Assembly (NCBI RefSeq): GCF_011752045.1
Contig: NZ_JAAKXW010000003.1
Coordinates: 496,001 to 560,000 of the forward strand
Length of the DNA: 64,000 nt
Direction: 5' to 3'
Source of the DNA: Microbacterium hydrocarbonoxydans
GTDB taxonomy: Bacteria > Actinomycetota > Actinomycetes > Actinomycetales > Microbacteriaceae
Part shown: piece by piece, positions 20,116 to 63,614 of the stretch
Numbering within the stretch: position 1 is the first letter of the stretch
How the letters are laid out: each line of letters opens with the position of its first letter
The notes under the pieces: model-generated
Databases searched by the model: none
What the model saw: only the letters and a program-made list of their open reading frames with translations
What the model was told of the DNA's origin: nothing
Made by a program: the position numbers and the translations under genes

Positions 20116-20153
20116 TGTGCAGCGAGCCCTGACCTCGTGCGACCGAGGACGGA

Positions 20154-20231
20154 GGGATGTTCCCGGAGTGAGCATCGGGAGGGGCCCGCGAAGCGGGAGG
20201 GAACCCGCTCTGCGAACAAAGGGAACATCCC
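20154..20231. repeat. Dispersed palindromic repeat, family A copy 1
   Basis: 78 bases bounded by a perfect 11-bp inverted repeat (GGGATGTTCCC/GGGAACATCCC). It contains an inner CCCGCGAAGCGGG hairpin and the shared segment gagcatcgggaggggccc. Similar copies lie at 52025-52102, 58824-58902 and 59917-59995. All are intergenic. Confidence 0.8.
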
Positions 20232-20266
20232 GGAGTCCGACCCACGCAGGTCATGCCGAGCGAGAG

Positions 20267-44886: not shown

Positions 44887-44954
44887 CCCCATACCTCAGA
44901 GCAGCTGCCTCGGCGGCTGCGAAGCCATGCCTCCCTACGGATGCGGAGGGCGCA

Positions 44955-45017
44955 GTGATGCCCTCTTCAGATGAATCGGGGTAGGGGTCCCCGCTCTTCA
45001 TCTGAAGAGGGCATCAC
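44955..45017. terminator. Large hairpin between the VIT gene and DUF3566 gene
   Basis: A perfect 21-bp inverted repeat (44955-44975 with 44997-45017) encloses an inner CGGGG/CCCCG stem (44977-44981 with 44989-44993). The two genes converge here. It may be a bidirectional terminator, but GGAGTCCGACCCAC (45018-45031) beside it also flanks repeat A copy 1 (20232-20245), so it may be a variant repeat. Confidence 0.7.
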
Positions 45018-45048
45018 GGAGTCCGACCCACAAGGGCCGAACGAGAGA

Positions 45049-51954: not shown

Positions 51955-52024
51955 GGGAGTCAGCCTACCTTCGGGGTCCGACAGTCGCGTGGTGGGCGGT
52001 GCGGGGCTTCGCGAACGGGGCTCC

Positions 52025-52102
52025 GGGATGCTCTCTTCGCTCGCAGAGCGGGGACCCTCCCGCTTCGCGGGCCCCTCCCGATGCTCGCTCCGAGAGCATC
52101 CC
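52025..52102. repeat. Dispersed palindromic repeat, family A copy 2
   Basis: 78 bases bounded by GGGATGCTCTC (52025-52035) and GAGAGCATCCC (52092-52102), with the inner CCCGCTTCGCGGG hairpin. It is followed by tgcgccctgac, also present beside copies 3 and 4. It is inverted relative to copy 1. Confidence 0.8.
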
Positions 52103-52175
52103 TGCGCCCTGACGAGCGCGGAACATCCGGGTGAGACCGGTGTGAGCAACCGCGATCGTTCGGATTATGGGGGTG

Positions 52176-52203
52176 GCAGCGTCTCGCTTCGCTCGACGGC
52201 TGC
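52176..52203. repeat. Dispersed repeat, family B
   Basis: GCAGCGTCTCGCTTCGCTCG then ACGGCTGC: an imperfect palindrome with an inner CTCGCTTCGCTCG-type hairpin. Relatives lie at 58766-58793, 58982-59009 and in the opposite orientation within 59811-60050. It accompanies family A repeats. Confidence 0.7.
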
Positions 52204-53952: not shown

Positions 53953-55347
53953 TCAGCGACGACCCAGCTGTGTGGTGATCTCGGTGACCTGGTTGTAGAT
54001 CGACCGGCGCTCCTTCATGAGCTCGCTGATCTTCTTGTACGCGTACATGACCGTGGTGTGGTCGCGGTTGCCGAACAGCTGGCCGATCTTCGGGAGGGAG
54101 AGGCTCGTCCGCTCCCGGCACAGGTACATGGCGATCTGCCTTGCCGTGGCGATCTGCTGCGACCGGCTCGATCCGTAGAGGTCGTCGACGGTGAGCTTGA
54201 AGTACTGCGCCGTCGCCGTGATGATGTCGGTCGGCGAGATGATGTTGTCCTCGGCCGTGTCGATGATGTCGCGCAGCACCGTCTGGGCGAGGGAGATGTC
54301 CAGCGCCGACCTGTTGAGGCTGGCGAAGGCGGACACCCGGATGAGAGCACCCTCGAGTTCGCGGATGTTCGACGAGACCACGGTCGCGATGTACTCGAGC
54401 ACCTCGTCGGGGATGTGCAGCGACTCGCTCTGCGCCTTCTTGCGGAGGATCGCGATGCGGGTCTCCAGGTCGGGGGCCTGCACATCGGTGATCAGGCCCC
54501 ACTCGAACCGGCTCCGCATCCGGTCTTCGAAGCCGGTGAGCAGCTTCGGCGCCACATCGCTGGTGATCACGACCTGCTTGTTGTGGTCGTGCAGCGTGTT
54601 GAAGGTGTGGAAGAACGCCTCCTGCGTCTCCGCGCGTCCCTGGAGGAACTGGATGTCGTCGATGAGGAGGATGTCGACCTCGCGGTATCGCGCCTGGAAG
54701 GCGGCGCCGCGGTTGTTCGCGATCGAGTTGATGAAGTCGTTCGTGAACTCCTCGCTGGAGACGTACCGCACCTTCACCCCGGCGTAGAGGGACTGCGCGT
54801 AGTCGCCGATCGCGTGGAGGAGGTGCGTCTTCCCGAGTCCGGAGTCGCCGTAGATGAAGAGCGGGTTGTACGCCTTCGCCGGCGCCTCGGCCACCGCGAC
54901 CGCAGCGGCGTGCGCGAAGCGGTTGGACTGACCGATGACGAAGTTGTCGAAGGTGTACTTCGGGTTCAGCCGCGATTCATGCCGGATCGGGGTCGGCTGC
55001 TGCTCCATCGGGGATTCCGTGCGGGACTGATCCTGGCGGCCGAAGTCGGGAACGGCGATCGGGGAGTTCGGCTGCTCGGCGAGCTCGTGGTTGACGACGA
55101 CGCGATAGGAGGTGACCTCGTCGCCGACGTGGGACAGCGCCTCCATGATCGGCAGGCGCAGGCGCTTGTTGATCTGCGCGGCCGTCAGGTCGTTGGGCAC
55201 CTCGAGGTAGAGCGTCGCCGCCATGACGCCGGCCGGGACGGCGAGGCTCAGGAAGCCCTGGAGCTGCGGGGTGACGCGGTCGTCCGCCTCGAGCAGCTCC
55301 TGCACCGTGGTCCAGATCGGAACGTCGGGCTGGGCAGGTGAGGACAT
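53953..55347 (-). CDS. dnaA: Chromosomal replication initiator protein DnaA
   Basis: 464 residues. Domain I (about 1-85) is followed by a short linker, the AAA+ domain (Walker A GDSGLGKT at 167-174, Walker B LLIDDIQFLQ), and the DNA-binding domain IV with the signature FGNRDHTTVMYAYKKI. It binds DnaA boxes and opens oriC. Two boxes (55398-55406 and 55498-55506) lie upstream of it, consistent with autoregulation. The ATG at 55347 starts MSSPAQPDVPIWTTVQELLE; longer upstream frames lack support. Confidence 0.98.
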   Translation of the reverse strand: MSSPAQPDVPIWTTVQELLEADDRVTPQLQGFLSLAVPAGVMAATLYLEVPNDLTAAQINKRLRLPIMEALSHVGDEVTSYRVVVNHELAEQPNSPIAVPDFGRQDQSRTESPMEQQPTPIRHESRLNPKYTFDNFVIGQSNRFAHAAAVAVAEAPAKAYNPLFIYGDSGLGKTHLLHAIGDYAQSLYAGVKVRYVSSEEFTNDFINSIANNRGAAFQARYREVDILLIDDIQFLQGRAETQEAFFHTFNTLHDHNKQVVITSDVAPKLLTGFEDRMRSRFEWGLITDVQAPDLETRIAILRKKAQSESLHIPDEVLEYIATVVSSNIRELEGALIRVSAFASLNRSALDISLAQTVLRDIIDTAEDNIISPTDIITATAQYFKLTVDDLYGSSRSQQIATARQIAMYLCRERTSLSLPKIGQLFGNRDHTTVMYAYKKISELMKERRSIYNQVTEITTQLGRR

Positions 55348-55665
55348 GACGCTCCGGGCGGGGGATCGCGGAGGGCCGCCGTGGAACACGTCCCCCCTGT
55401 GGATAACTTCGGATGCCACGGTAGTCATCCCGGCTGTGAACGGCAACCTGCCCTTGAAAATCCGCGCGCGTGTTGTACGCGCGACGGGGGATGAGGTTGT
55501 GGATAATGGCTGTGCGGTAAGCGGCGGAGAGAGCACCGGGCAGCGCGCAGATTTGCTCTGCGCGCCGGCAGGACGTACCCTTAATCGGTTGACTTATGCC
55601 TGAACGGCAGTTCCCTATGTCTCCGGTCGAAATGGTTCCGGTGGCAGCATTCCCGGAGTGATTCC
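55348..55665. promoter_or_regulatory. Divergent dnaA-rpmH promoter region
   Basis: 318 bases between divergent genes. DnaA boxes (TTATCCACA, minus orientation) lie at 55398-55406 and 55498-55506. A CGCGCG-TGTTGTA-CGCGCG palindrome lies between them. For rpmH, TTGCTC (55553-55558) and TACCCT (55576-55581) with a 17-base spacer form a good promoter. No gene is seen. Confidence 0.6.
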
Positions 55666-55803
55666 ATGAGCAAGCGCACCTTCCAGCCCAACAACCGTCG
55701 TCGCGCCAAGAAGCACGGCTTCCGCGCCCGTATGCGCACCCGCGCCGGCCGCGCCATCCTCTCGGCACGCCGCGCGAAGGGCCGCACCGAGCTCTCCGCG
55801 TAA
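55666..55803 (+). CDS. rpmH: 50S ribosomal protein L34
   Basis: 45 residues, [45 protein letters not shown]-type L34: highly basic, the usual length and the conserved [11 protein letters not shown] core. It is a structural protein of the large subunit. Its first gene position in the rpmH-rnpA-yidD-yidC cluster next to dnaA is universal in bacteria of this type. A ribosome site (cggag) precedes the ATG. Confidence 0.98.
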
Positions 55804-55810
55804 TTCCGCT

Positions 55811-56155
55811 GTGCTCGCCCGCCCGTTCCGGCTGACCCGCGGGAGCGACTATCGACTGGTCGTTCGACGCGGTTCGCGGTGTGGAGGGGCGCGCGTCGTC
55901 ACCTCGATGCTGACGACGGGCGAGAGCAGAGCCGCGAGGTTCGGATTCATCATCAGCAAGCAGGTGGGTGGCGCCGTGGTGCGCAACACCGTCCGCCGGC
56001 GGCTCAAAGCCGTCTGTGCGGAGGCGCTGCCGCGGGTTCCCGAGGGCACGGATGTCGTCATCCGTGCCCTTCCTGCATCCGCGACGGCGACCTACGCCGA
56101 GCTCAGCGCCGATGTGAACCGGTGTCTCGGTCGTCTGACGCGGGTCTCGCCGTGA
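55811..56155 (+). CDS. rnpA: Ribonuclease P protein component
   Basis: 114 residues. The conserved RNR-type motif VRNTVRRRLKAV and FIISKQVGGAVVRN mark RnpA. It binds the RNase P RNA and helps mature tRNA 5' ends. The GTG start at 55811 (LARPFRLTRGSDYRLVVRRG) lies 7 bases after rpmH, and its end overlaps the yidD GTG. Confidence 0.96.
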   Translation: MLARPFRLTRGSDYRLVVRRGSRCGGARVVTSMLTTGESRAARFGFIISKQVGGAVVRNTVRRRLKAVCAEALPRVPEGTDVVIRALPASATATYAELSADVNRCLGRLTRVSP

Positions 56156-56502
56156 CCGCGCTCCCCGCTTCGTCGGTGGGAACGGCCCGGCTGCACGGGG
56201 AGGATCTCCTCCGAAGCATCCCGCTGATCCCGCGGAATCTGGTGCTGGGCTTCCTGGCCGGGTACCGCCGGGTGATCTCCCCGATGTACGGAGACGTCTG
56301 CGCGTACTACCCCTCCTGTTCCGCCTACGCTGTAGGTGCGGTGCAGCAGCACGGCGCCGTGCGGGGCGCGCTGCTCTCGGCATGGCGCATCCTGCGCTGC
56401 AATCCCTGGACTCGAGGCGGCGTCGACGACGTCCGCCCGCATGAACATTTCCGCTACGACCTGACCGCACACGGTTTCGTCGTCCCTGCCCGAAAGGACT
56501 GA
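56152..56502 (+). CDS. yidD: Membrane protein insertion efficiency factor YidD
   Basis: 116 residues, a bit longer than typical at the N-terminus. The YidD core reads LAGYRRVISPMYGDVCAYYPSCSAYAVGAVQQHGAVRGALLSAWRILRCNPWTRGGVDDV, with the conserved cysteines. It is thought to aid YidC-dependent insertion at the membrane. The GTG overlaps rnpA's stop, and it ends 3 bases before yidC. Confidence 0.93.
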   Translation: MTALPASSVGTARLHGEDLLRSIPLIPRNLVLGFLAGYRRVISPMYGDVCAYYPSCSAYAVGAVQQHGAVRGALLSAWRILRCNPWTRGGVDDVRPHEHFRYDLTAHGFVVPARKD

Positions 56503-56505
56503 TCG

Positions 56506-57573
56506 GTGGGTCTTGACCTTCTGTTCGCTGAAACCACGCCGTCTCCCGACGCTGGCGGTGGTTTCGACCTGATCGGGACCATCCTCTGGCCTCTCAAGTG
56601 GCTGGTCGAGCTCGTGCTCGTCGCCTGGCATTGGCTGCTCACCACGGTGGGGATGCCGGCGGCATCCGGCCTGACCTGGGTGCTGTCCATCGTCGGCCTT
56701 GTCATCGTCGTGCGCGCGGCACTGATCCCGCTCTTCGTGAAGCAGATCAAGAGCCAGCGCAAGATGATGGAAATTGCTCCTGAACTGCGAAAAGTCCAGG
56801 AGAAGTACCGCGGCAAGAAGGATCAGCTCAGCCGTGAGGCGATGAGCCGAGAGACCATGGCGCTGTACAAGAAGCACGGCACCACACCCATGTCGAGCTG
56901 TCTGCCGCTTCTCGTCCAGATGCCGGTGTTCTTCTCGCTCTACAGCGTGCTCAGCGATGTGAGCAAGCATGCCAGGGACGGTATCGGAGGCGTCGGCTTC
57001 CTGACGCCCGAGCTCACCAAGGAGTTCTACGACGCCAAGCTGTTCGGCGTCGCCTCCCTGCACCAGACCCTCGGTGACGCGGTCGACGCTCAGAACATGA
57101 CGGCGATCATCATCCTGGTCACGCTCGTCGTGCTCATGATCGCCTCGCAGTTCATCACCCAGCTGCAGATCATCTCGAAGAACCTGTCGCCGGAGGCCAA
57201 GACCGGTCAGGCGTACCAGATGCAGAAGATCATGCTCTACGTCCTGCCCCTGGGCTTCATCTTCTCCGGTGTGTTCTTCCCGCTCGGCGTCGTCATCTAC
57301 TGGTTCATCTCCAACCTGTGGACCATGGGCCAGCAGTTCCTGGTCATCCGTGAGATGCCCACTCCGGGTTCCGAAGCGGCCAAGGCTCGTGAAGAGCGAC
57401 TGGCTCGCAAGGGCAAGGCGATCAGCGCCTCGGGCAAGGTCGTTCCGATGTCCGTCTACGAGGCGGAGCAGCAGCGCCTGGTCGAAGAGGTCGAGAAGGC
57501 GAAGGCTGAGGCACCGAAGCGTCAGCAGCCGGTGGGCAAGAAGCGTGCGAAGAAGAAGGGCGGCGCGGCATGA
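56506..57573 (+). CDS. yidC: Membrane protein insertase YidC
   Basis: 355 residues. The OxaI/YidC core follows an N-terminal segment (about 25-60). Five membrane segments are expected, with VRAALIPLFVKQIKSQRKMMEIAPELRKVQEKY forming the helical hairpin and SCLPLLVQMPVFFSLYSVL after it. A basic C-terminal tail (QQPVGKKRAKKKGG) can contact ribosomes. It inserts proteins with or without SecYEG. The GTG at 56506 follows gaaaggactg. Confidence 0.96.
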   Translation: MGLDLLFAETTPSPDAGGGFDLIGTILWPLKWLVELVLVAWHWLLTTVGMPAASGLTWVLSIVGLVIVVRAALIPLFVKQIKSQRKMMEIAPELRKVQEKYRGKKDQLSREAMSRETMALYKKHGTTPMSSCLPLLVQMPVFFSLYSVLSDVSKHARDGIGGVGFLTPELTKEFYDAKLFGVASLHQTLGDAVDAQNMTAIIILVTLVVLMIASQFITQLQIISKNLSPEAKTGQAYQMQKIMLYVLPLGFIFSGVFFPLGVVIYWFISNLWTMGQQFLVIREMPTPGSEAAKAREERLARKGKAISASGKVVPMSVYEAEQQRLVEEVEKAKAEAPKRQQPVGKKRAKKKGGAA

Positions 57574-58061
57574 GCGAGCACATCACGGAGACCGCCGAGC
57601 CGACGGTCGCTCAGCTGGAGCACGAGGGGGATGTCGCTGCCGACTACCTCGAGGAACTGCTGGACATCGCGGACATCGACGGAGATCTGAACCTCGACGT
57701 CCGACAGGGCCGTGCGTACGTGTCGGTCGAGGCGGAGGGGGACTCCCTCGCGCTTCTCTCCGCGCCGGACACGGTCCAGGCGCTGCAGGAGCTCACCCGC
57801 CTGGCGGTGCAGAACAAGACCGGTTCGTTCTCGCGACTCATCCTCGACATCGGCGGCTCGCGGGACGCCCGGCGCCGGCAGCTTGAGACCCTGGTGAACG
57901 CGGCGGCGAGCAAGCTCGATGAAGGAGCCTCGCAGGCGTCTCTGCCTGCGATGTCCAGCTACGAGCGCAAGCTCGTGCACGACATCGCCGCGGAGCGTGG
58001 TCTCGTCTCCGAGTCCTACGGCGAGGGTGCGGACCGTCACACCGTCCTGCGTCGCCGCTGA
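57570..58061 (+). CDS. khpB: R3H-domain RNA-binding protein KhpB (Jag)
   Basis: 163 residues. A short N-terminus precedes a KH-like region (about 30-95, DGDLNLDVRQGRAYVSVEA) and an R3H domain (SSYERKLVHDIAAERGL with the Arg-x3-His pair). The protein binds RNA, probably with KhpA, and lies in the standard position after yidC. It lacks the N-terminal Jag_N domain seen in Firmicutes. Its ATG overlaps the yidC stop, and its stop abuts parS site 1. Confidence 0.93.
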   Translation: MSEHITETAEPTVAQLEHEGDVAADYLEELLDIADIDGDLNLDVRQGRAYVSVEAEGDSLALLSAPDTVQALQELTRLAVQNKTGSFSRLILDIGGSRDARRRQLETLVNAAASKLDEGASQASLPAMSSYERKLVHDIAAERGLVSESYGEGADRHTVLRRR

Positions 58062-58077
58062 CGTTTCACGTGAAACA
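58062..58077. promoter_or_regulatory. parS: parS site 1
   Basis: CGTTTCACGTGAAACA, one base from the consensus TGTTTCACGTGAAACA. It abuts the khpB stop codon and lies upstream of rsmG. parS is the loading site for the CTP-dependent ParB clamp. Confidence 0.95.
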
Positions 58078-58095
58078 TTCGTGGAAGGGATGTTC

Positions 58096-58719
58096 ATGAG
58101 CCCTGTCGAACCCGAACCGGAGAACGCTGCGGAACTCTTCGGCGACCGTATCGATGTCGCCCGCGCGTTCACCGCGGCTCTCGCGGATCAGGGTGAGGAG
58201 CGCGGGCTGATCGGTCCGCTCGAACTGCCGCGGCTCTGGACACGTCACATCCTCAACAGCGTCATCGCGGCACCCCTGTTCCACGGCTCCGTCGCGGACA
58301 TCGGCTCTGGCGCAGGGCTGCCCGGACTGGTCCTCGCGATCGCCCGACCCGATGTGCAGTGGACCCTCATCGAGCCGATGGAGCGCCGCGTCACCTGGCT
58401 CAATGAACAGGTGTCCTCGCTCGGCCTGTCGAACGTCGAGGTTCTCCGTGCGCGCGCCGAAGAGGTGCGTCGGCCGGAGGGATTCGACGTGGTCACCGCT
58501 CGCGCGGTCAGCGCACTGCGCACACTGATTCCGATCACCGCGCCGCTCGTCCGCGATGGGGGAGAGCTCACCCTCCTCAAGGGCATGAACGCGGCGAACG
58601 AGATCGACGCGGCGCAGAAGCAGATCAAGAAGTTCCGGCTGTCGGATGTGCGCGTCGAGGTTCTCGGTGAGGGAGTCCTGCCGGAGACGACCCGGGTGGT
58701 TCGGGCCACGGTGCGGTAG
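58096..58719 (+). CDS. rsmG: 16S rRNA (guanine527-N7)-methyltransferase
   Basis: 207 residues. The SAM-binding region VADIGSGAGLPGLVLAIARPD is diagnostic of RsmG/GidB, with later motifs WLNEQVSSLGLSNVEVLRARAEE. It methylates N7 of G527 in 16S rRNA; loss can give low-level streptomycin resistance. The ATG at 58096 is preferred because gaaggga lies at good spacing, but 58090 is possible. It is followed by parS site 2 and the inverted repeat. Confidence 0.95.
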   Translation: MSPVEPEPENAAELFGDRIDVARAFTAALADQGEERGLIGPLELPRLWTRHILNSVIAAPLFHGSVADIGSGAGLPGLVLAIARPDVQWTLIEPMERRVTWLNEQVSSLGLSNVEVLRARAEEVRRPEGFDVVTARAVSALRTLIPITAPLVRDGGELTLLKGMNAANEIDAAQKQIKKFRLSDVRVEVLGEGVLPETTRVVRATVR

Positions 58720-58733
58720 TTCCGCCTACGGAG

Positions 58734-58749
58734 TGTTTCACGTGAAACA
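58734..58749. promoter_or_regulatory. parS: parS site 2
   Basis: A perfect TGTTTCACGTGAAACA lies between rsmG and the left arm of the 262-base inverted repeat, which begins 3 bases later. Confidence 0.97.
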
Positions 58750-58752
58750 TTC

Positions 58753-59014
58753 GTGGGTGTGGGGGGCAGCGTCGTGCTTCGCTCGACGGCTGCGGTTCTA
58801 GGGATTCTGCGGTGGCGGGCTCCGGGATGCTCCTCCTCATTCGCAGAGCAGGTTCCCTCCCGCTCCGCGGGTCCCTCCCGATGCTCATTCGGAGGACATC
58901 CCTGCGCCCTGACATCCCGAGCATCATGATGCTCTTCGGTGATCAGTGACTGCACCCTCCTCTCTTGGAGATATGGGTAGGGCAGCGTCTCGCTGCGCTC
59001 GACGACTGCGTGCG
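58753..59014. repeat. Long inverted repeat, left arm (262 bp)
   Basis: This segment matches the reverse complement of 59809-60070 along its whole length. The core from about 58817 to 58957 shows only three differences by eye. It contains family B at 58766-58793 and 58982-59009, and family A copy 3 at 58824-58902. It has no convincing gene. Confidence 0.9.
58824..58902. repeat. Dispersed palindromic repeat, family A copy 3
   Basis: 79 bases from GGGATGCTCC to GGACATCCC, with an inner CCCGCTCCGCGGG hairpin. It lies within the left arm of the long inverted repeat and is oriented like copy 2. Confidence 0.8.
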
Positions 59015-59128
59015 TAGACACGCAGACGTTGCGTGGGTAACCCTCGCTTTTGAAGCACTGAGTGCGGGCATTCTGGGAAGGTCGGGCTTTGAGTGAGGGG
59101 AGGAGCGAGGAACGCCCCGGGGGTGATG

Positions 59129-59144
59129 TGTTTCACGTGAAACA
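59129..59144. promoter_or_regulatory. parS: parS site 3
   Basis: A perfect TGTTTCACGTGAAACA inside the island bracketed by the long inverted repeats. Confidence 0.97.
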
Positions 59145-59246
59145 TTGAGGCATTGGGCTCGATGCTCGTTGGTATGCGACCGCAGTAGAGATCATGGTGC
59201 GGCTGGCGGGCCGGTGCTGAATGTGGGTGTGGGGGAGAGGGGATCG

Positions 59247-59262
59247 TGTTTCACGTGAAACA
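59247..59262. promoter_or_regulatory. parS: parS site 4
   Basis: A perfect TGTTTCACGTGAAACA, 9 bases before the ATG of the hypothetical gene at 59271. Confidence 0.97.
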
Positions 59263-59270
59263 TCGGCAGG

Positions 59271-59750
59271 ATGAGTGCCGTGGAGTATCTGAAGATCGCT
59301 GTCCCTGCGGGCCTCTGGACACGAGTGGACAGCTGTGTCGACAACACGATGGCGACCGATGTCGTTGAGCTGAATATGGAGTCCGTGATCAACGGTGCCT
59401 GTGTGCGAGATGTGGGCTGGAGAGCATCGGCTGCTTTCGACGGTGAACGCGATGAATGGGGCCTGCCTCCCCTGGACCATCTGCTCCCGGTCGTCCTTCA
59501 GCGTTCCCACTGGGAGTGGACCATCGAACAGCTGGACAGATGGATGATGTACGAGAGTGACAAGACGCTGGTCCGCGCGCGACCACGTCCTCAACGCCCT
59601 CCGCTCACTCTGACTCCACGCGAATCTTCCCCGGTCGTATCCCTCGAAAGACGCGAGGAGAGTCATACCGTCGGGCACTCCATCGCCTCACATGCCGACC
59701 CGTCAGGCGCCTGGGCACACGAGGGCACCGCAAGTCCATGTTTCACGTGA
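59271..59750 (+). CDS. Hypothetical protein within the parS island
   Basis: 159 residues if real. The first 100 look protein-like: VEYLKIAVPAGLWTRVDSCVDN and PPLDHLLPVVLQRSHWEWTIEQLDRWMMYESDKTL, with Trp-rich helices. The last 55 are low-complexity, and the stop codon lies inside parS site 5, so the natural end may have been lost or overwritten. An overlapping minus-strand frame (59133-59678) is less convincing. Family and function are unknown. parS site 4 sits upstream, where ParB spreading could affect expression. Confidence 0.5.
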   Translation: MSAVEYLKIAVPAGLWTRVDSCVDNTMATDVVELNMESVINGACVRDVGWRASAAFDGERDEWGLPPLDHLLPVVLQRSHWEWTIEQLDRWMMYESDKTLVRARPRPQRPPLTLTPRESSPVVSLERREESHTVGHSIASHADPSGAWAHEGTASPCFT

Positions 59751-59754
59751 AACA
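59739..59754. promoter_or_regulatory. parS: parS site 5
   Basis: A perfect TGTTTCACGTGAAACA. Its TGA provides the stop codon of the hypothetical gene. Confidence 0.97.
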
Positions 59755-59808
59755 TGACACCGTGGGCCGACTCGCCTCCTCCGGCCCACCCAACGACCAC
59801 GAGCTGTT

Positions 59809-60070
59809 CGCACGCAGTCGTCGAGCGCAGCGAGACGCTGCCCACCCATACTTCCAAGGGAGGGTGTAGTCACTGATCACCGAAGAGCATCATGATGCTC
59901 GGGATGTCAGGGCGCAGGGATGTCCTCCGAATGAGCATCGGGAGGGGCCCGCGGAGCGGGAGGGAACCCGCTCTGCGAATGAGGAGGAGCATCCCGGAGC
60001 CCGTCACCGAGATTCCCTGGAAACCGCAGCCGTCGAGCGAAGCACGACGATCCCCCCGATCGCCACCCAC
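59809..60070. repeat. Long inverted repeat, right arm (262 bp)
   Basis: This is the reverse-complement partner of 58753-59014, of identical length. It contains family A copy 4 (59917-59995) and two family B units in opposite orientation. The arms are 794 bases apart. Confidence 0.9.
59917..59995. repeat. Dispersed palindromic repeat, family A copy 4
   Basis: 79 bases from GGGATGTCC to GGAGCATCCC, with an inner CCCGCGGAGCGGG hairpin. It is oriented like copy 1, opposite to copies 2 and 3. Confidence 0.8.
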
Positions 60071-60130
60071 TCACCGCTCAGCAACGTCCTCAACAGCGAT
60101 TAGAGTGGAACACGGCCCCGAAAGGAGTGG

Positions 60131-61051
60131 ATGTTTCACGTGAAACAGTCCGAAAAGGCATCACCGAACACCTTCGGGATGGACACACCCCTCGCACGGG
60201 AGCTCGCAGACCTCTCCGCCCGCCGAAAAGTGCTGGAGTCGGTCACCGTGGAGTTCTCCGGCGAGACCCGGGTGCTGACCGTCTCCAACCAGAAGGGCGG
60301 GGTCGGCAAGACGACGACGGCGGTGAACATCGCCTCGGCCCTCGCCTCCCTCGGCGCCAAGGTGCTGGTCATCGACCTCGACCCGCAGGGGAACGCATCG
60401 ACAGCGCTGGGAGTTCCGCACAGCGGTGACATCCCCAGCGTCTACGACGTGCTGATCGAGGAGTTCCCCCTCGCGGACATCGTGCAGCAGAGCCCGGAGA
60501 GCGAGAATCTCTTCTGCGCGCCGAGCACCATCCACCTCGCCGGCGCCGAGATCGAGCTCGTGGCGCAGGTCGCCCGCGAGCACCGGCTCCGTCGGGCGCT
60601 GCTGGACTACCTCGAGACCTACCCGATGGACTTCGTGATCATCGACTGCCCGCCGTCGCTGGGGCTCCTCACGATCAACGCCTTCACGGCGGCATCCGAG
60701 GTGTTCATCCCGATCCAATGCGAGTACTACGCACTGGAGGGGTTGAGCCAGCTGCTCGGCAGCATCCAGATGATCCAGAAGCACCTGAATCCCGCACTTC
60801 ACCTGTCGACGATCCTGCTGACGATGTACGACGGTCGGACCCGTCTCGCGCAGCAGGTCGCCGACGAGGTCCGCAATCACTTCCCGACCCAGGTGCTGAA
60901 CACCGTCATCCCGCGCTCGGTGCGGGTGTCGGAGGCGCCGAGTTTCGGGCAGACCGTGATCGCCTACGATGGGCAGTCGGCCGGCGCTGTCGCGTACCGC
61001 GAAGCCGCCGTCGAGATCGCGTCGCGTGCGACGCAGAGCAAGGAGAGATGA
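60131..61051 (+). CDS. parA: Chromosome partitioning ATPase ParA (Soj)
   Basis: 306 residues. The deviant Walker A motif is KGGVGKTT in VSNQKGGVGKTTTAVNIASALA, with LVIDLDPQGNAS and FVIIDCPPSLGLLT following. It binds DNA non-specifically and moves ParB-parS complexes. The start is the ATG at 60131, four bases after aaaggag. That makes the first codons part of parS site 6 (MFHVKQ). An internal ATG at 60179 lacks a ribosome site. It overlaps the parB frame. Confidence 0.96.
   Translation: MFHVKQSEKASPNTFGMDTPLARELADLSARRKVLESVTVEFSGETRVLTVSNQKGGVGKTTTAVNIASALASLGAKVLVIDLDPQGNASTALGVPHSGDIPSVYDVLIEEFPLADIVQQSPESENLFCAPSTIHLAGAEIELVAQVAREHRLRRALLDYLETYPMDFVIIDCPPSLGLLTINAFTAASEVFIPIQCEYYALEGLSQLLGSIQMIQKHLNPALHLSTILLTMYDGRTRLAQQVADEVRNHFPTQVLNTVIPRSVRVSEAPSFGQTVIAYDGQSAGAVAYREAAVEIASRATQSKER
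60132..60147. promoter_or_regulatory. parS: parS site 6, within the parA start
   Basis: A perfect TGTTTCACGTGAAACA begins at the second base of the parA ATG, so codons 1-6 of parA are encoded by parS. Confidence 0.97.
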
Positions 61052-62028
61052 TGGCCAAGCGCACAGGACTGGGCCGGGGGATCGGCGCCCTGATCCCGAC
61101 GGCCGATCAGGCGGAGCGTCCCGTCGACGTGTTCTTCCCGGGGGCGAACCTCCGGCCGGTCCCGGACGGGCCCGCAGCCGAGACGACCGTCGCAGAGGAG
61201 GAGCCCGCACTCGAGAGCGTGCCCGGCATCCATCTCATCCAGGTCGATCCGCTCAAGATCGTGCCGAACCCGCGACAGCCGCGTACGCACTTCGACGCCG
61301 AGGACCTCGCTGAGCTGGTGCACAGCGTCCGCGAGTTCGGCGTCCTGCAGCCGGTCGTGGTCCGCAGGAACAACGACGGCGACTATGAGCTCATCATGGG
61401 TGAGCGCCGCACGCGCGCCGCTCGGGAAGCCGGGCTCGACCTCATCCCGGCGATCGTCCGCGACACCGCCGACGAGGACCTCCTTCGTGACGCGCTGCTC
61501 GAGAACCTGCACCGCTCGGAGCTGAACCCGCTGGAGGAGGCGTCGGCGTACCAGCAGCTGCTCGAGGACTTCGGCATCACGCAGGAGGAGCTGGCTACCC
61601 GGATCGGACGCTCCCGACCGCAGATCAGCAACACGATCCGTCTTCTCAAGCTGCCCGTCCCGGTGCAGCAGCGCGTCGCCGCCGGAGTGCTCACCGCCGG
61701 ACACGCGCGCGCGATCCTCAGCCTTGAGACCCCCGAGGCCATGCAGCGTCTGGCCGACAAGGTCGTGAACGAGGACCTCTCGGTGCGTGCCACCGAGGTG
61801 GCGGCGAAGACCGAGCCGACCTCTCCCGGTCGCAGCGCGAAGGCGACTCCCGGTGCACGCCGCGCCTACCTCGACGAGGTGGCCGGCAAGCTCGGCGACC
61901 GGCTGAACACGCGGGTCCAGATCTCTCTCGGCGCTCGGAAAGGCCAGGTCAAGATCGATTTCGCATCGATCCAGGATCTCAATCGCATCCTCGGCGAGCT
62001 CGGCGAGGAGAGCTACGGCCGCGGCTGA
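61051..62028 (+). CDS. parB: Chromosome partitioning protein ParB (Spo0J)
   Basis: 325 residues. The N-terminal ParA-contact region begins AKRTGLGRGIGALIPTAD. The CTP-binding ParB/Srx domain (about 85-180) has IVPNPRQPRTHFD and GERRTRAAREAGL. The helix-turn-helix reads ITQEELATRIGRSRPQISNTIRLLKLP, and a C-terminal dimerisation domain follows. It loads at parS and spreads as a CTP-dependent clamp. aggaga precedes the ATG at 61051 by four bases; the ATG at 61048 overlaps the parA stop but is too close. Confidence 0.97.
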   Translation: MAKRTGLGRGIGALIPTADQAERPVDVFFPGANLRPVPDGPAAETTVAEEEPALESVPGIHLIQVDPLKIVPNPRQPRTHFDAEDLAELVHSVREFGVLQPVVVRRNNDGDYELIMGERRTRAAREAGLDLIPAIVRDTADEDLLRDALLENLHRSELNPLEEASAYQQLLEDFGITQEELATRIGRSRPQISNTIRLLKLPVPVQQRVAAGVLTAGHARAILSLETPEAMQRLADKVVNEDLSVRATEVAAKTEPTSPGRSAKATPGARRAYLDEVAGKLGDRLNTRVQISLGARKGQVKIDFASIQDLNRILGELGEESYGRG

Positions 62029-62043
62029 CGGCATCCGCTCGAT

Positions 62044-62087
62044 CGAAGAACCGCGTGTCGCAGATCCCTGTGGCGCGCGGTTCTTCG
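62044..62087 (+). terminator. parB terminator
   Basis: A 12-bp perfect stem (62044-62055 with 62076-62087, CGAAGAACCGCG) with a 20-base loop lies 16 bases after the parB stop. It is followed by TTGTGT. Confidence 0.8.
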
Positions 62088-62153
62088 TTGTGTCAGGGTG
62101 TTGACCACCGGCGTCTCGCCGATGGTCGACGAAGACTGATCGGAGGGGTGGCG

Positions 62154-63614
62154 ATGGCCGGACACGGAGGGGCAGCAACCGAAGAGGAGTCGATCTTCGA
62201 AGAAGAAGGGGACTCGCGCAGCGCGGGGGTCATCCGGATCGCCGTCGTGGCGGCGCTGGGTGGATTCCTGTTCGGGTACGACAGCGCGGTGATCAACGGG
62301 GCGGTGGCCGCGGTCGAGAAGACATTCGAGGCGGACCCCATCGCGCTCGGGTTCGCCGTGGCATCCGCTCTCATCGGCGCCGCCGTCGGCGCACTGATGG
62401 CGGGCCGCATCGCCGACCGGGTCGGCAGGCTCGCCGTCATGAAGATCGCGGCGGTGCTGTTCCTCGCCTCGGCGATCGTCACCGGGCTGGCGCCCGATCT
62501 CTGGGTGCTCGTCGCCGGGCGCATCGTCGGCGGTCTCGGAGTCGGGATGGCGTCGGTGATCGCGCCGGCCTACATCGCCGAGATCGCTCCGGCGCGCATC
62601 CGCGGCCGGCTGGCGTCGCTGCAGCAGCTGGCGATCGTCACCGGCATCTTCGTCTCGCTGCTCGTGGACTTCCTCATCGCCACAGCGGCCGGTGGCTCCG
62701 CTGAGCCGTTCTGGTGGGGGCTGGACGCCTGGCAGTGGATGTTCCTCGCGATGGCCGTGCCCGCGATCGTCTACGGGGGACTGGCCCTCACGATCCCGGA
62801 GTCCCCGCGCTACCTGGTCGCCAACCACCGGGTGGAGGAGGCGAAGGCCGTCCTGTCGAAGCTGATGGGGCCGGACAAGATCGAGACGACCGTCATCCGC
62901 ATCCGGGAGACCATGGAGCGCTCGACGAAGCCCTCCTGGGCCGATCTCAAGACTCCCGGCGGCAGGATCGCGGGCATCGTCTGGGTGGGTCTGCTGCTGT
63001 CCGTGTTCCAGCAGTTCGTCGGCATCAACGTGATCTTCTACTACTCGAACATCCTCTGGGAGGCCGTCGGCTTCGACGAGTCCCAGGCGTTCGTGATCAC
63101 CGTCATCAGCGCGGTGATCAACATCCTCACGACGCTCATCGCGATCGCGACGATCGACCGGTTCGGTCGCAAGCCGCTGCTGCTCATCGGATCGATCGGC
63201 ATGACGGTCACGCTCGCCACGATGGCCGTGATCTTCGGGACGGCCCCTGTCGTGGACGGCGCGCCCGTGCTCGACGGCGCATCCGGACCGATCGCCCTGA
63301 TCGCGGCGAACCTGTTCGTGATCGCCTTCGGCATGTCGTGGGGACCCGTCGTCTGGGTGCTGCTCGGCGAGATGTTCCCGAACCGGATGCGCGCGGCGGC
63401 GCTGTCCCTCGCGGCGGCGGGGCAGTGGGTGGCGAACTGGGTCATCACGGTGTCGTTCCCCGGCCTCAAGGACCTGTCGCTCGGCCTCGCCTACGGCCTC
63501 TACGCGACGTTCGCTCTGCTGTCGCTGCTGTTCGTCTGGCGGTTCGTGCAGGAGACGAAGGGCAAGTCGCTGGAGGACATGACGGGGAGCGTCGCGGCGC
63601 CTGGCAGCCATTGA
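62154..63614 (+). CDS. Sugar porter family MFS transporter
   Basis: 486 residues with 12 membrane segments. Sugar-porter motifs are clear: GGFLFGYDSAVINGA in TM1, AGRIADRVGRLAVM between TM2 and TM3, PAYIAEIAPARIRGRLASLQQLAI, and PESPRYLV and QQFVGINVIFYYSNILW. It imports a sugar or polyol, probably with protons; the substrate is not predictable. An acidic cytoplasmic N-terminus of about 20 residues precedes TM1. cggagggg precedes the ATG at 62154. It seems to be its own unit between two terminators. Confidence 0.92.
   Translation: MAGHGGAATEEESIFEEEGDSRSAGVIRIAVVAALGGFLFGYDSAVINGAVAAVEKTFEADPIALGFAVASALIGAAVGALMAGRIADRVGRLAVMKIAAVLFLASAIVTGLAPDLWVLVAGRIVGGLGVGMASVIAPAYIAEIAPARIRGRLASLQQLAIVTGIFVSLLVDFLIATAAGGSAEPFWWGLDAWQWMFLAMAVPAIVYGGLALTIPESPRYLVANHRVEEAKAVLSKLMGPDKIETTVIRIRETMERSTKPSWADLKTPGGRIAGIVWVGLLLSVFQQFVGINVIFYYSNILWEAVGFDESQAFVITVISAVINILTTLIAIATIDRFGRKPLLLIGSIGMTVTLATMAVIFGTAPVVDGAPVLDGASGPIALIAANLFVIAFGMSWGPVVWVLLGEMFPNRMRAAALSLAAAGQWVANWVITVSFPGLKDLSLGLAYGLYATFALLSLLFVWRFVQETKGKSLEDMTGSVAAPGSH

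Follow-up and report, generated by a model that had tools for sequence, protein, structure and literature searches.

Organization of the rsmG-parA region

We have analyzed a stretch of 64,000 nucleotides from Microbacterium hydrocarbonoxydans, hereafter called the window, which is part of contig C3 of a 3.65-Mb genome. The seven proteins scanned between positions 53956 and 63611 are YidC-, R3H/Jag-, RsmG-, ParA-, ParB-, sugar transporter- and DnaA-like. The window contains six parS-like 16-mers, while none was found in 100 shuffled sequences. These 16-mers adjoin parA and parB, as in a ParABS centromere region, and the locus is probably of this kind. The gap between rsmG and parA is occupied by two arms in inverted orientation, each composed of copies of two repeats that we call A and B, and by a short island between them. 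The features are as follows.

58062 to 58077, plus strand: parS-like site with one mismatch (16-mer search)
58096 to 58719, plus strand: rsmG (GidB) (protein scan)
58734 to 58749, plus strand: parS (16-mer search)
58753 to 59014, minus strand: left arm, B-A-B, facing outward (sequence comparison)
58765 to 58793 (C3:554765-554793), minus strand: B repeat, left arm outer (pattern search)
58812 to 58914, minus strand: A element, left copy (R1 model, 103 bits)
58981 to 59009 (C3:554981-555009), minus strand: B repeat, left arm inner (pattern search)
59129 to 59144, plus strand: parS, between the arms (16-mer search)
59247 to 59262, plus strand: parS, between the arms (16-mer search)
59271 to 59750, plus strand: orphan ORF of 159 aa, residues 3-108 conserved in some Microbacterium (ORF call)
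59739 to 59754, plus strand: parS, between the arms, providing the stop codon of the orphan ORF (16-mer search)
59809 to 60070, plus strand: right arm, B-A-B, facing outward (sequence comparison)
59814 to 59842 (C3:555814-555842), plus strand: B repeat, right arm inner (pattern search)
59905 to 60007, plus strand: A element, right copy (R1 model, 108.3 bits)
60026 to 60054 (C3:556026-556054), plus strand: B repeat, right arm outer, two mismatches (pattern search)
60131 to 61051, plus strand: parA (protein scan)
60132 to 60147, plus strand: parS over the parA start codon; ParA begins MFHVK (16-mer search)
61048 to 62028, plus strand: parB (protein scan)

The initial annotation of this DNA had described inverted arms of equal length and nearly identical sequence, built of A and B repeats and enclosing 794 bases with three of the six parS sites and an orphan gene. 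All of these points hold. Each arm is 262 nt long with the order B-A-B, the spacer is 794 nt, and the arms are 92% identical over 267 columns when gaps are allowed; a gapless pairing matches at only 96 of 262 positions. Within the arms, 58810-58960 and 59859-60009 form a gapless block of 151 nt with 97% complementarity, and 58980-59014 and 59809-59843 are fully complementary (100%) over 35 nt. A fainter likeness extends to 59037 and 59785 (91%, 278 columns). A repeat of such length and likeness is not a chance occurrence. Folded singly as RNA, the arms showed no unusual stability (z of -0.80 and -1.76).

The orphan ORF has no match in Pfam, PHROG or NCBIfam. Its relatives occur in 17 of 366 Microbacterium genomes, including the one studied here. 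The ORF lies in the rsmG-parA gap of the window and of genomes G072 and G032, always in one orientation, and only the window and G072 also have arms; blastn (E ≤ 1e-8) matched the ORF region of the island to these two genomes only. Elsewhere, relatives of the ORF lie about 65 kb from rsmG in G112 and on a different contig in G039.

A and B repeats in the M. hydrocarbonoxydans genome

The core of the arms is a dispersed repeat. Five copies were found in the genome at E<1e-10, four of them within 40 kb of rsmG: those in the two arms, two elsewhere in the window (52013 and 20142), and one on contig C6. The same search gave 19 more weak matches of 14-29 nt, with E values up to 10, and a covariance model added a weaker A copy at 44943. 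The B repeat is 29 nt long and appears hairpin-like by eye. With up to 3 mismatches allowed, the genome has five copies: the arms contain four, and the fifth lies next to the dnaN-recF copy of A; a control search with the reversed pattern gave none. The copies in the window outside the arms are:

20142 to 20243, plus strand: A element, crgA-rhomboid slot (covariance model)
44943 to 45029, plus strand: A element, weaker, VIT1-DUF3566 slot (59.6 bits)
52013 to 52114, minus strand: A element, dnaN-recF slot (covariance model)
52175 to 52203 (C3:548175-548203), minus strand: B repeat beside the dnaN-recF A element (pattern search)

Structure of the A element

The A element is about 102 nt long, and its consensus feet are AGGGCGCA/GGAGCCCG. 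We extracted 59 copies from 40 fetched loci and the window, and aligned 43 of them. The outer stem covaries: the consensus fold has 26 pairs, 18 of which have at least one two-sided change. These counts must be read with the caution that the copies are related rather than independent and that mutational palindrome correction can in part yield compensatory changes without selection. Among 56 copies, most stem columns are Watson-Crick paired in 89-100% and show two to four pair types, while two further columns are intermediate (58% and 65% Watson-Crick). Seven stem columns carry G·A in 43-81% of these 56 copies, as against C·T in at most 2% in any column. The same asymmetry is found in the counts of stem mismatches, with 279 A·G versus 6 C·T in 64 class-1 copies and 57 versus 1 in 15 class-2 copies. 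The purines of the conserved mismatches lie on one strand, which suggests that this is the strand made for folding.

We also compared GU with AC departures, counted at pairs whose modal state is Watson-Crick. The ratio in A was 33:22 (p=0.18), as opposed to 68:11 in a control with the RNase P RNA of 30 Microbacterium genomes; the class-2 set gave 13:8, and pairwise stem counts of GT to AC were 27:19 and 8:12. Wobble pairs are few in the A stems. The ratio, set against that of RNase P RNA, tends to favour an element that acts as DNA rather than as RNA.

Distribution of A elements

Copies of A were found by the model (E ≤ 0.001) in 48 of 119 genomes of the genus, with one to eight copies per carrier. 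Among 249 genomes drawn from 78 genera of the family, three matched, all in Microbacterium, under stricter filters with which weak matches are lost. A search of 84,980 species with the exact core pattern recovered 61 stretches, all titled Microbacterium except three, which belong to two MAGs labelled 'Actinomycetota', SZAS-7 and SZAS-4. The element was not found in viral contigs with the exact pattern, nor in plasmids and phages by blastn, and an origin of A from a phage or plasmid was rejected on the outcome of these searches. In the genomes searched, A thus far appears to be restricted to Microbacterium.

Strong copies are concentrated around the origin region. The 83 copies of at least 60 bits occur in 29 genomes, and 60 of them share a contig with rsmG, from which 51 are separated by at most 45 kb and nine by more, some contigs being too short to hold distant copies. 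One of the nine lies on a 4.60-Mb contig of G116; should this contig be circular, the distance would shrink to about 11 kb. No distance can be given for the remaining 23 strong copies, whose contigs do not include rsmG. Among contigs of 1 Mb or more, 23 of 31 copies lie within 45 kb, compared to about 3% expected, by a hand tally in which G116 was taken as near, G093 was left out, and copies in orthologous slots are not independent. We also looked for 16 origin-region proteins of the window at the 61 loci of the species-wide scan; 45 loci contain one or more of them, and 16 contain none.

The same slots recur among genomes, namely gyrB-gyrA, dnaN-recF, crgA-rhomboid, VIT1-DUF3566 and both ends of the rsmG-parA gap. 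Four of 60 copies fall inside an ORF by a simple ORF call, one of these (52013) reflecting an over-long recF ORF. Copies in the dnaN-recF and gyrB-gyrA slots are on the minus strand and those at crgA and VIT1 on the plus strand; in these four slots the element is in the sense direction, approximately 40-190 nt downstream of a gene. No rule relating its orientation to fork direction or to parS was seen by eye. Among the gyrB-gyrA gaps listed, those without the element measure at most 117 nt and those with it 159-195 nt. Among the gaps listed, we saw no clean case of an empty site with target duplications, and the flanks of the dnaN-recF and gyrB-gyrA slots align poorly by eye. In a comparison of the gyrB-gyrA gaps of the window and of loci L071, L073, L143, L140 and L081, some of those listed that do not have A contained a different hairpin-like sequence, a palindrome of the GGGTCCCTGAGC or CTCGCTTCGCTCG type.

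Copies of a weaker class score mostly 38-60 bits, and most of those that can be placed are far from the origin; some are near it, for example in G010, G004 and G112. In seven genomes (G009, G023, G047, G055, G060, G069 and G089) weaker-class copies form inverted pairs 77-85 kb apart, which lie about 1.1-1.2 Mb from rsmG in the three genomes where the contig is shared. Many weaker-class copies (L170-L183, L189) have a GTAGGGG loop. For several class-2 copies, the simple ORF call gives an antisense direction relative to both flanking genes.

The rsmG-parA gap in relatives

Relatives were taken as the best 40 of 114 by RsmG score, 35 of which gave a complete gap. These gaps range between 113 and 3172 nt (median 1774) and hold 2 to 11 parS sites (median 6); gap length and parS number are correlated (rho 0.82). 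As in the window, a parS site covers the parA start codon in 33 of the 35. In some gaps, the parS sites are spaced in agreement with the period of tandem repeats (for example L050, L051, L058 and L068). Tandem-repeat gaps are also listed for L060 and L162, and L162 has three A copies at a spacing of 256-272 nt.

Eight of the 35 complete gaps contain A: four on both sides, three on the left only and one on the right only. The other 27 have no A copy (E ≤ 0.01), yet they hold between 2 and 11 parS sites; the cluster is thus not dependent on the arms. This comparison with relatives, which the initial annotation had proposed as a check, counts against a necessary role of the arms. Multiplication of parS sites in the gap is independent of the arms, and in other species it comes about in part through tandem duplication.

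The bracketing of a parS cluster by inverted repeats, also part of the earlier description, is nevertheless real and recurs in other species. Ten genomes, when named genomes and fragments are also counted, carry A on both sides of the gap: that of the window, G111, G063 (on two contigs), G072, G061, G106, M. azadirachtae, M. galbinum and the MAGs Pcu381 and RM44. Those given under a species or MAG name were picked because they hold the pattern and are thus uninformative about its frequency. The ten fall in two separate parts of an RsmG-ParA tree. Relative to rsmG, the left copies are all on the minus strand (16 genomes) and the right copies all on the plus strand (11 genomes), without exception. 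By blastn (E ≤ 1e-8), similarity of the island to other gaps is found chiefly in the arms and in the last ~50 bases before parA.

Relationships between the two sides of the gap

In a tree of the gap copies, the left and right copies of the M. hydrocarbonoxydans genome group together (support 0.96), as do those of M. galbinum (0.91). The copies of G061, G106, M. azadirachtae and Pcu381 group by side instead, with a support of 0.78 for the left group and 0.59 for the right group. In G111 and G063, the left copies form a group (0.985) and the right copies do not, and the left/right grouping of G072 is not resolved in the tree. The four copies of RM44 are placed close to one another, although the long azadirachtae branch arises from within this set. 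Likeness between the two sides reaches beyond the element for 291 columns at 90% in our genome, compared to only 88 columns in G111.

We infer that the likeness of the two sides in M. hydrocarbonoxydans and M. galbinum is due to gene conversion between inverted copies, which the grouping of the copies suggests. In the azadirachtae clade, the tree is that of two sides which seem to have been inherited separately. The tree would look no different if, instead of gene conversion, one side had recently been copied over the other in a single event. Repeated inversion would also explain the homogenisation; nothing else supports it.

Possible roles of the arms and the A element

On balance, and with moderate confidence, we interpret the arms as outward-facing copies of a strand-specific hairpin element of the origin region, which have been subject to gene conversion and act as folded DNA. 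Conversion between the inverted copies would keep the arms alike, and neither flipping of the island nor its arrival as a unit would be involved. With less assurance, we suppose that A would act in folded form, either as a cruciform or through its plus strand in the single-stranded state, and that it might be a site in the origin region for protein binding or for topological effects. The greatest doubt about this interpretation as a whole concerns DNA versus RNA, and function versus hitch-hiking.

The first of these doubts can be stated as an alternative in which A is a structured RNA of origin-region operons, whether a small RNA, a leader element or a 3'-UTR element. A conserved core with covarying stems would fit such an RNA, as would the sense placement downstream of gyrB, dnaN, crgA and VIT1, the slight excess of GU over AC, and the strong score of one strand alone in the model (114 bits versus 25 on the other strand for the 52013 copy). 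Against it, that excess is far from the ratio in RNase P RNA and wobble pairs are scarce; the left gap copy is antisense to rsmG in all 16 genomes that have one, several class-2 copies are antisense to both neighbouring genes, and A has no credible Rfam match. We therefore consider an RNA possible if somewhat unlikely, and action as DNA is favoured by these sequence comparisons. The other doubt, hitch-hiking, corresponds to a roleless, non-autonomous palindromic repeat, REP- or MITE-like, maintained by mutational palindrome correction, with the bracket produced by two chance insertions. Low copy number and a patchy occurrence (48 of 119 genomes) are in keeping with such a repeat, and so are the presence of the pair in only some genomes and, among the gyrB-gyrA gaps listed, the shorter length of those without the element, some of which hold unrelated hairpin-like sequences. 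It is nonetheless unlikely, since the strong bias to the origin and the fixed orientation in the gap are difficult to attribute to chance insertion, the Y1 transposase is absent from our genome and from all 48 element-bearing genomes, and no copy was found in viral contigs searched with the exact pattern, or in plasmids or phages. In addition, palindrome correction should have erased the conserved G·A mismatches.

Two further proposals concern the pair of arms rather than the element. The initial annotation had suggested that the arms could support inversion of the parS island, which would make them a recombination switch; they are indeed inverted and nearly identical, and homogenised arms are the expected trace of repeated recombination. 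The suggestion fares poorly in several respects: the arm core is dispersed outside the island, A is absent from the gap of 27 of 35 relatives, the enclosed ORF has one orientation in all three genomes known to have it in the gap, and no recombinase is among the seven proteins scanned at 53956-63611. Since parS is palindromic, a flip of the island would also change little, and a switch appears highly improbable. Nor did two other ideas from the same source stand up, as a single large cruciform would have to form over a 794-nt spacer, which is implausible, and acquisition as a unit is at odds both with the dispersal of the core and with the restriction of matches in other gaps mainly to the arms and the bases before parA. 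Alternatively, the outward pair could be a boundary, or insulator, of a ParB-parS or SMC domain. This is favoured by the nature of A as an origin-region element and by the constant outward direction of the copies that surround the parS cluster in two clades. It is very unlikely, however, because parS is clustered without the pair in most of the 35 relatives, the window and relatives have parS sites beyond the bracket as well, and no parS is flanked by the other origin copies of the window.

Our preferred reading of A as a folded DNA element can be extended to a more specific model, which we put forward only as a speculation and regard as distinctly unlikely in its full form. Here A would be a genus-specific hairpin of the origin domain whose folded plus strand contains tandem sheared G·A pairs; a protein would recognize it and mark or organise the oriC region, and the outward pair around the parS cluster would set the limits of the ParB-parS, and SMC-loading, complex.

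Comparison with known systems

REP-type bacterial palindromic repeats are high-copy and often linked to a transposase. The A element is low-copy and, in our survey, restricted to one genus; it occupies origin slots beside genes of replication, segregation and division, and its covarying stems include G·A pairs. If functional, it would represent a new kind of origin-region landmark. It shares with REP and BIME sequences the form of short imperfect palindromes that are mostly intergenic, carry conserved unpaired bases and sometimes occur as inverted pairs. Unlike REP, it is clustered at the origin and has no GTAG (or CGTC) foot, GTAG being present only in the loop of many weaker-class copies. 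Its length of about 102 nt and its one to eight copies per carrier genome also differ from the 20-40 nt and more than 100 copies per genome given for REP in two published accounts (PMC3733652, PMC2817692). The REP-associated Y1 transposase (RAYT, PF01797) has no match in our genome, and its single match among 119 genomes of the genus is in G038, where A was not found; an identity of A with REP/RAYT elements was rejected because this transposase is absent. A may work like REP sites, as structured DNA bound by protein, without being classed as REP.

In the RacA/ram system of Bacillus subtilis, repeated DNA sites concentrated around the origin are bound by an anchoring protein. The ram sites are short and double-stranded, whereas A, which is likewise repeated and concentrated at the origin, is long and has a covarying stem. 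With the structured RNAs of Rfam, A has in common covarying helices and conserved internal loops, but it does not have a GU excess like that of RNase P RNA. A search of 4227 Rfam families gave nothing for the arms at E ≤ 1, and seven matches obtained with loci L089, L081, L005 and L100 were all under the family cut-offs. Matches of the L005 copy to mir-423 (E 0.0011) and mir-4667 were judged to be chance hairpin matches. In the small part of the literature covered, on Microbacterium and actinobacterial parS and on extragenic palindromes, no title describes the A element, and the repeat family looks new.

Clustering of several parS sites near oriC is shared by Microbacterium and Corynebacterium glutamicum, for which ten 16-bp parS sites within 35 kb are given in a published account (PMC7083940). 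The arrangement in Microbacterium differs in that several sites lie in a single rsmG-parA gap of 0.1-3.2 kb, bracketed by A in some species. This gap constitutes a natural experiment, in which length and parS number covary across species, and it would permit a direct comparison among species of the number of parS sites required and of the factors that fix the border of the ParB complex. Elsewhere in the window, positions 54793-54852 have a weak Rfam match to AsdA, an antisense RNA of dnaA (27.5 bits, with a cut-off of 52), and a match to the same family is present in L081 (33.3 bits).
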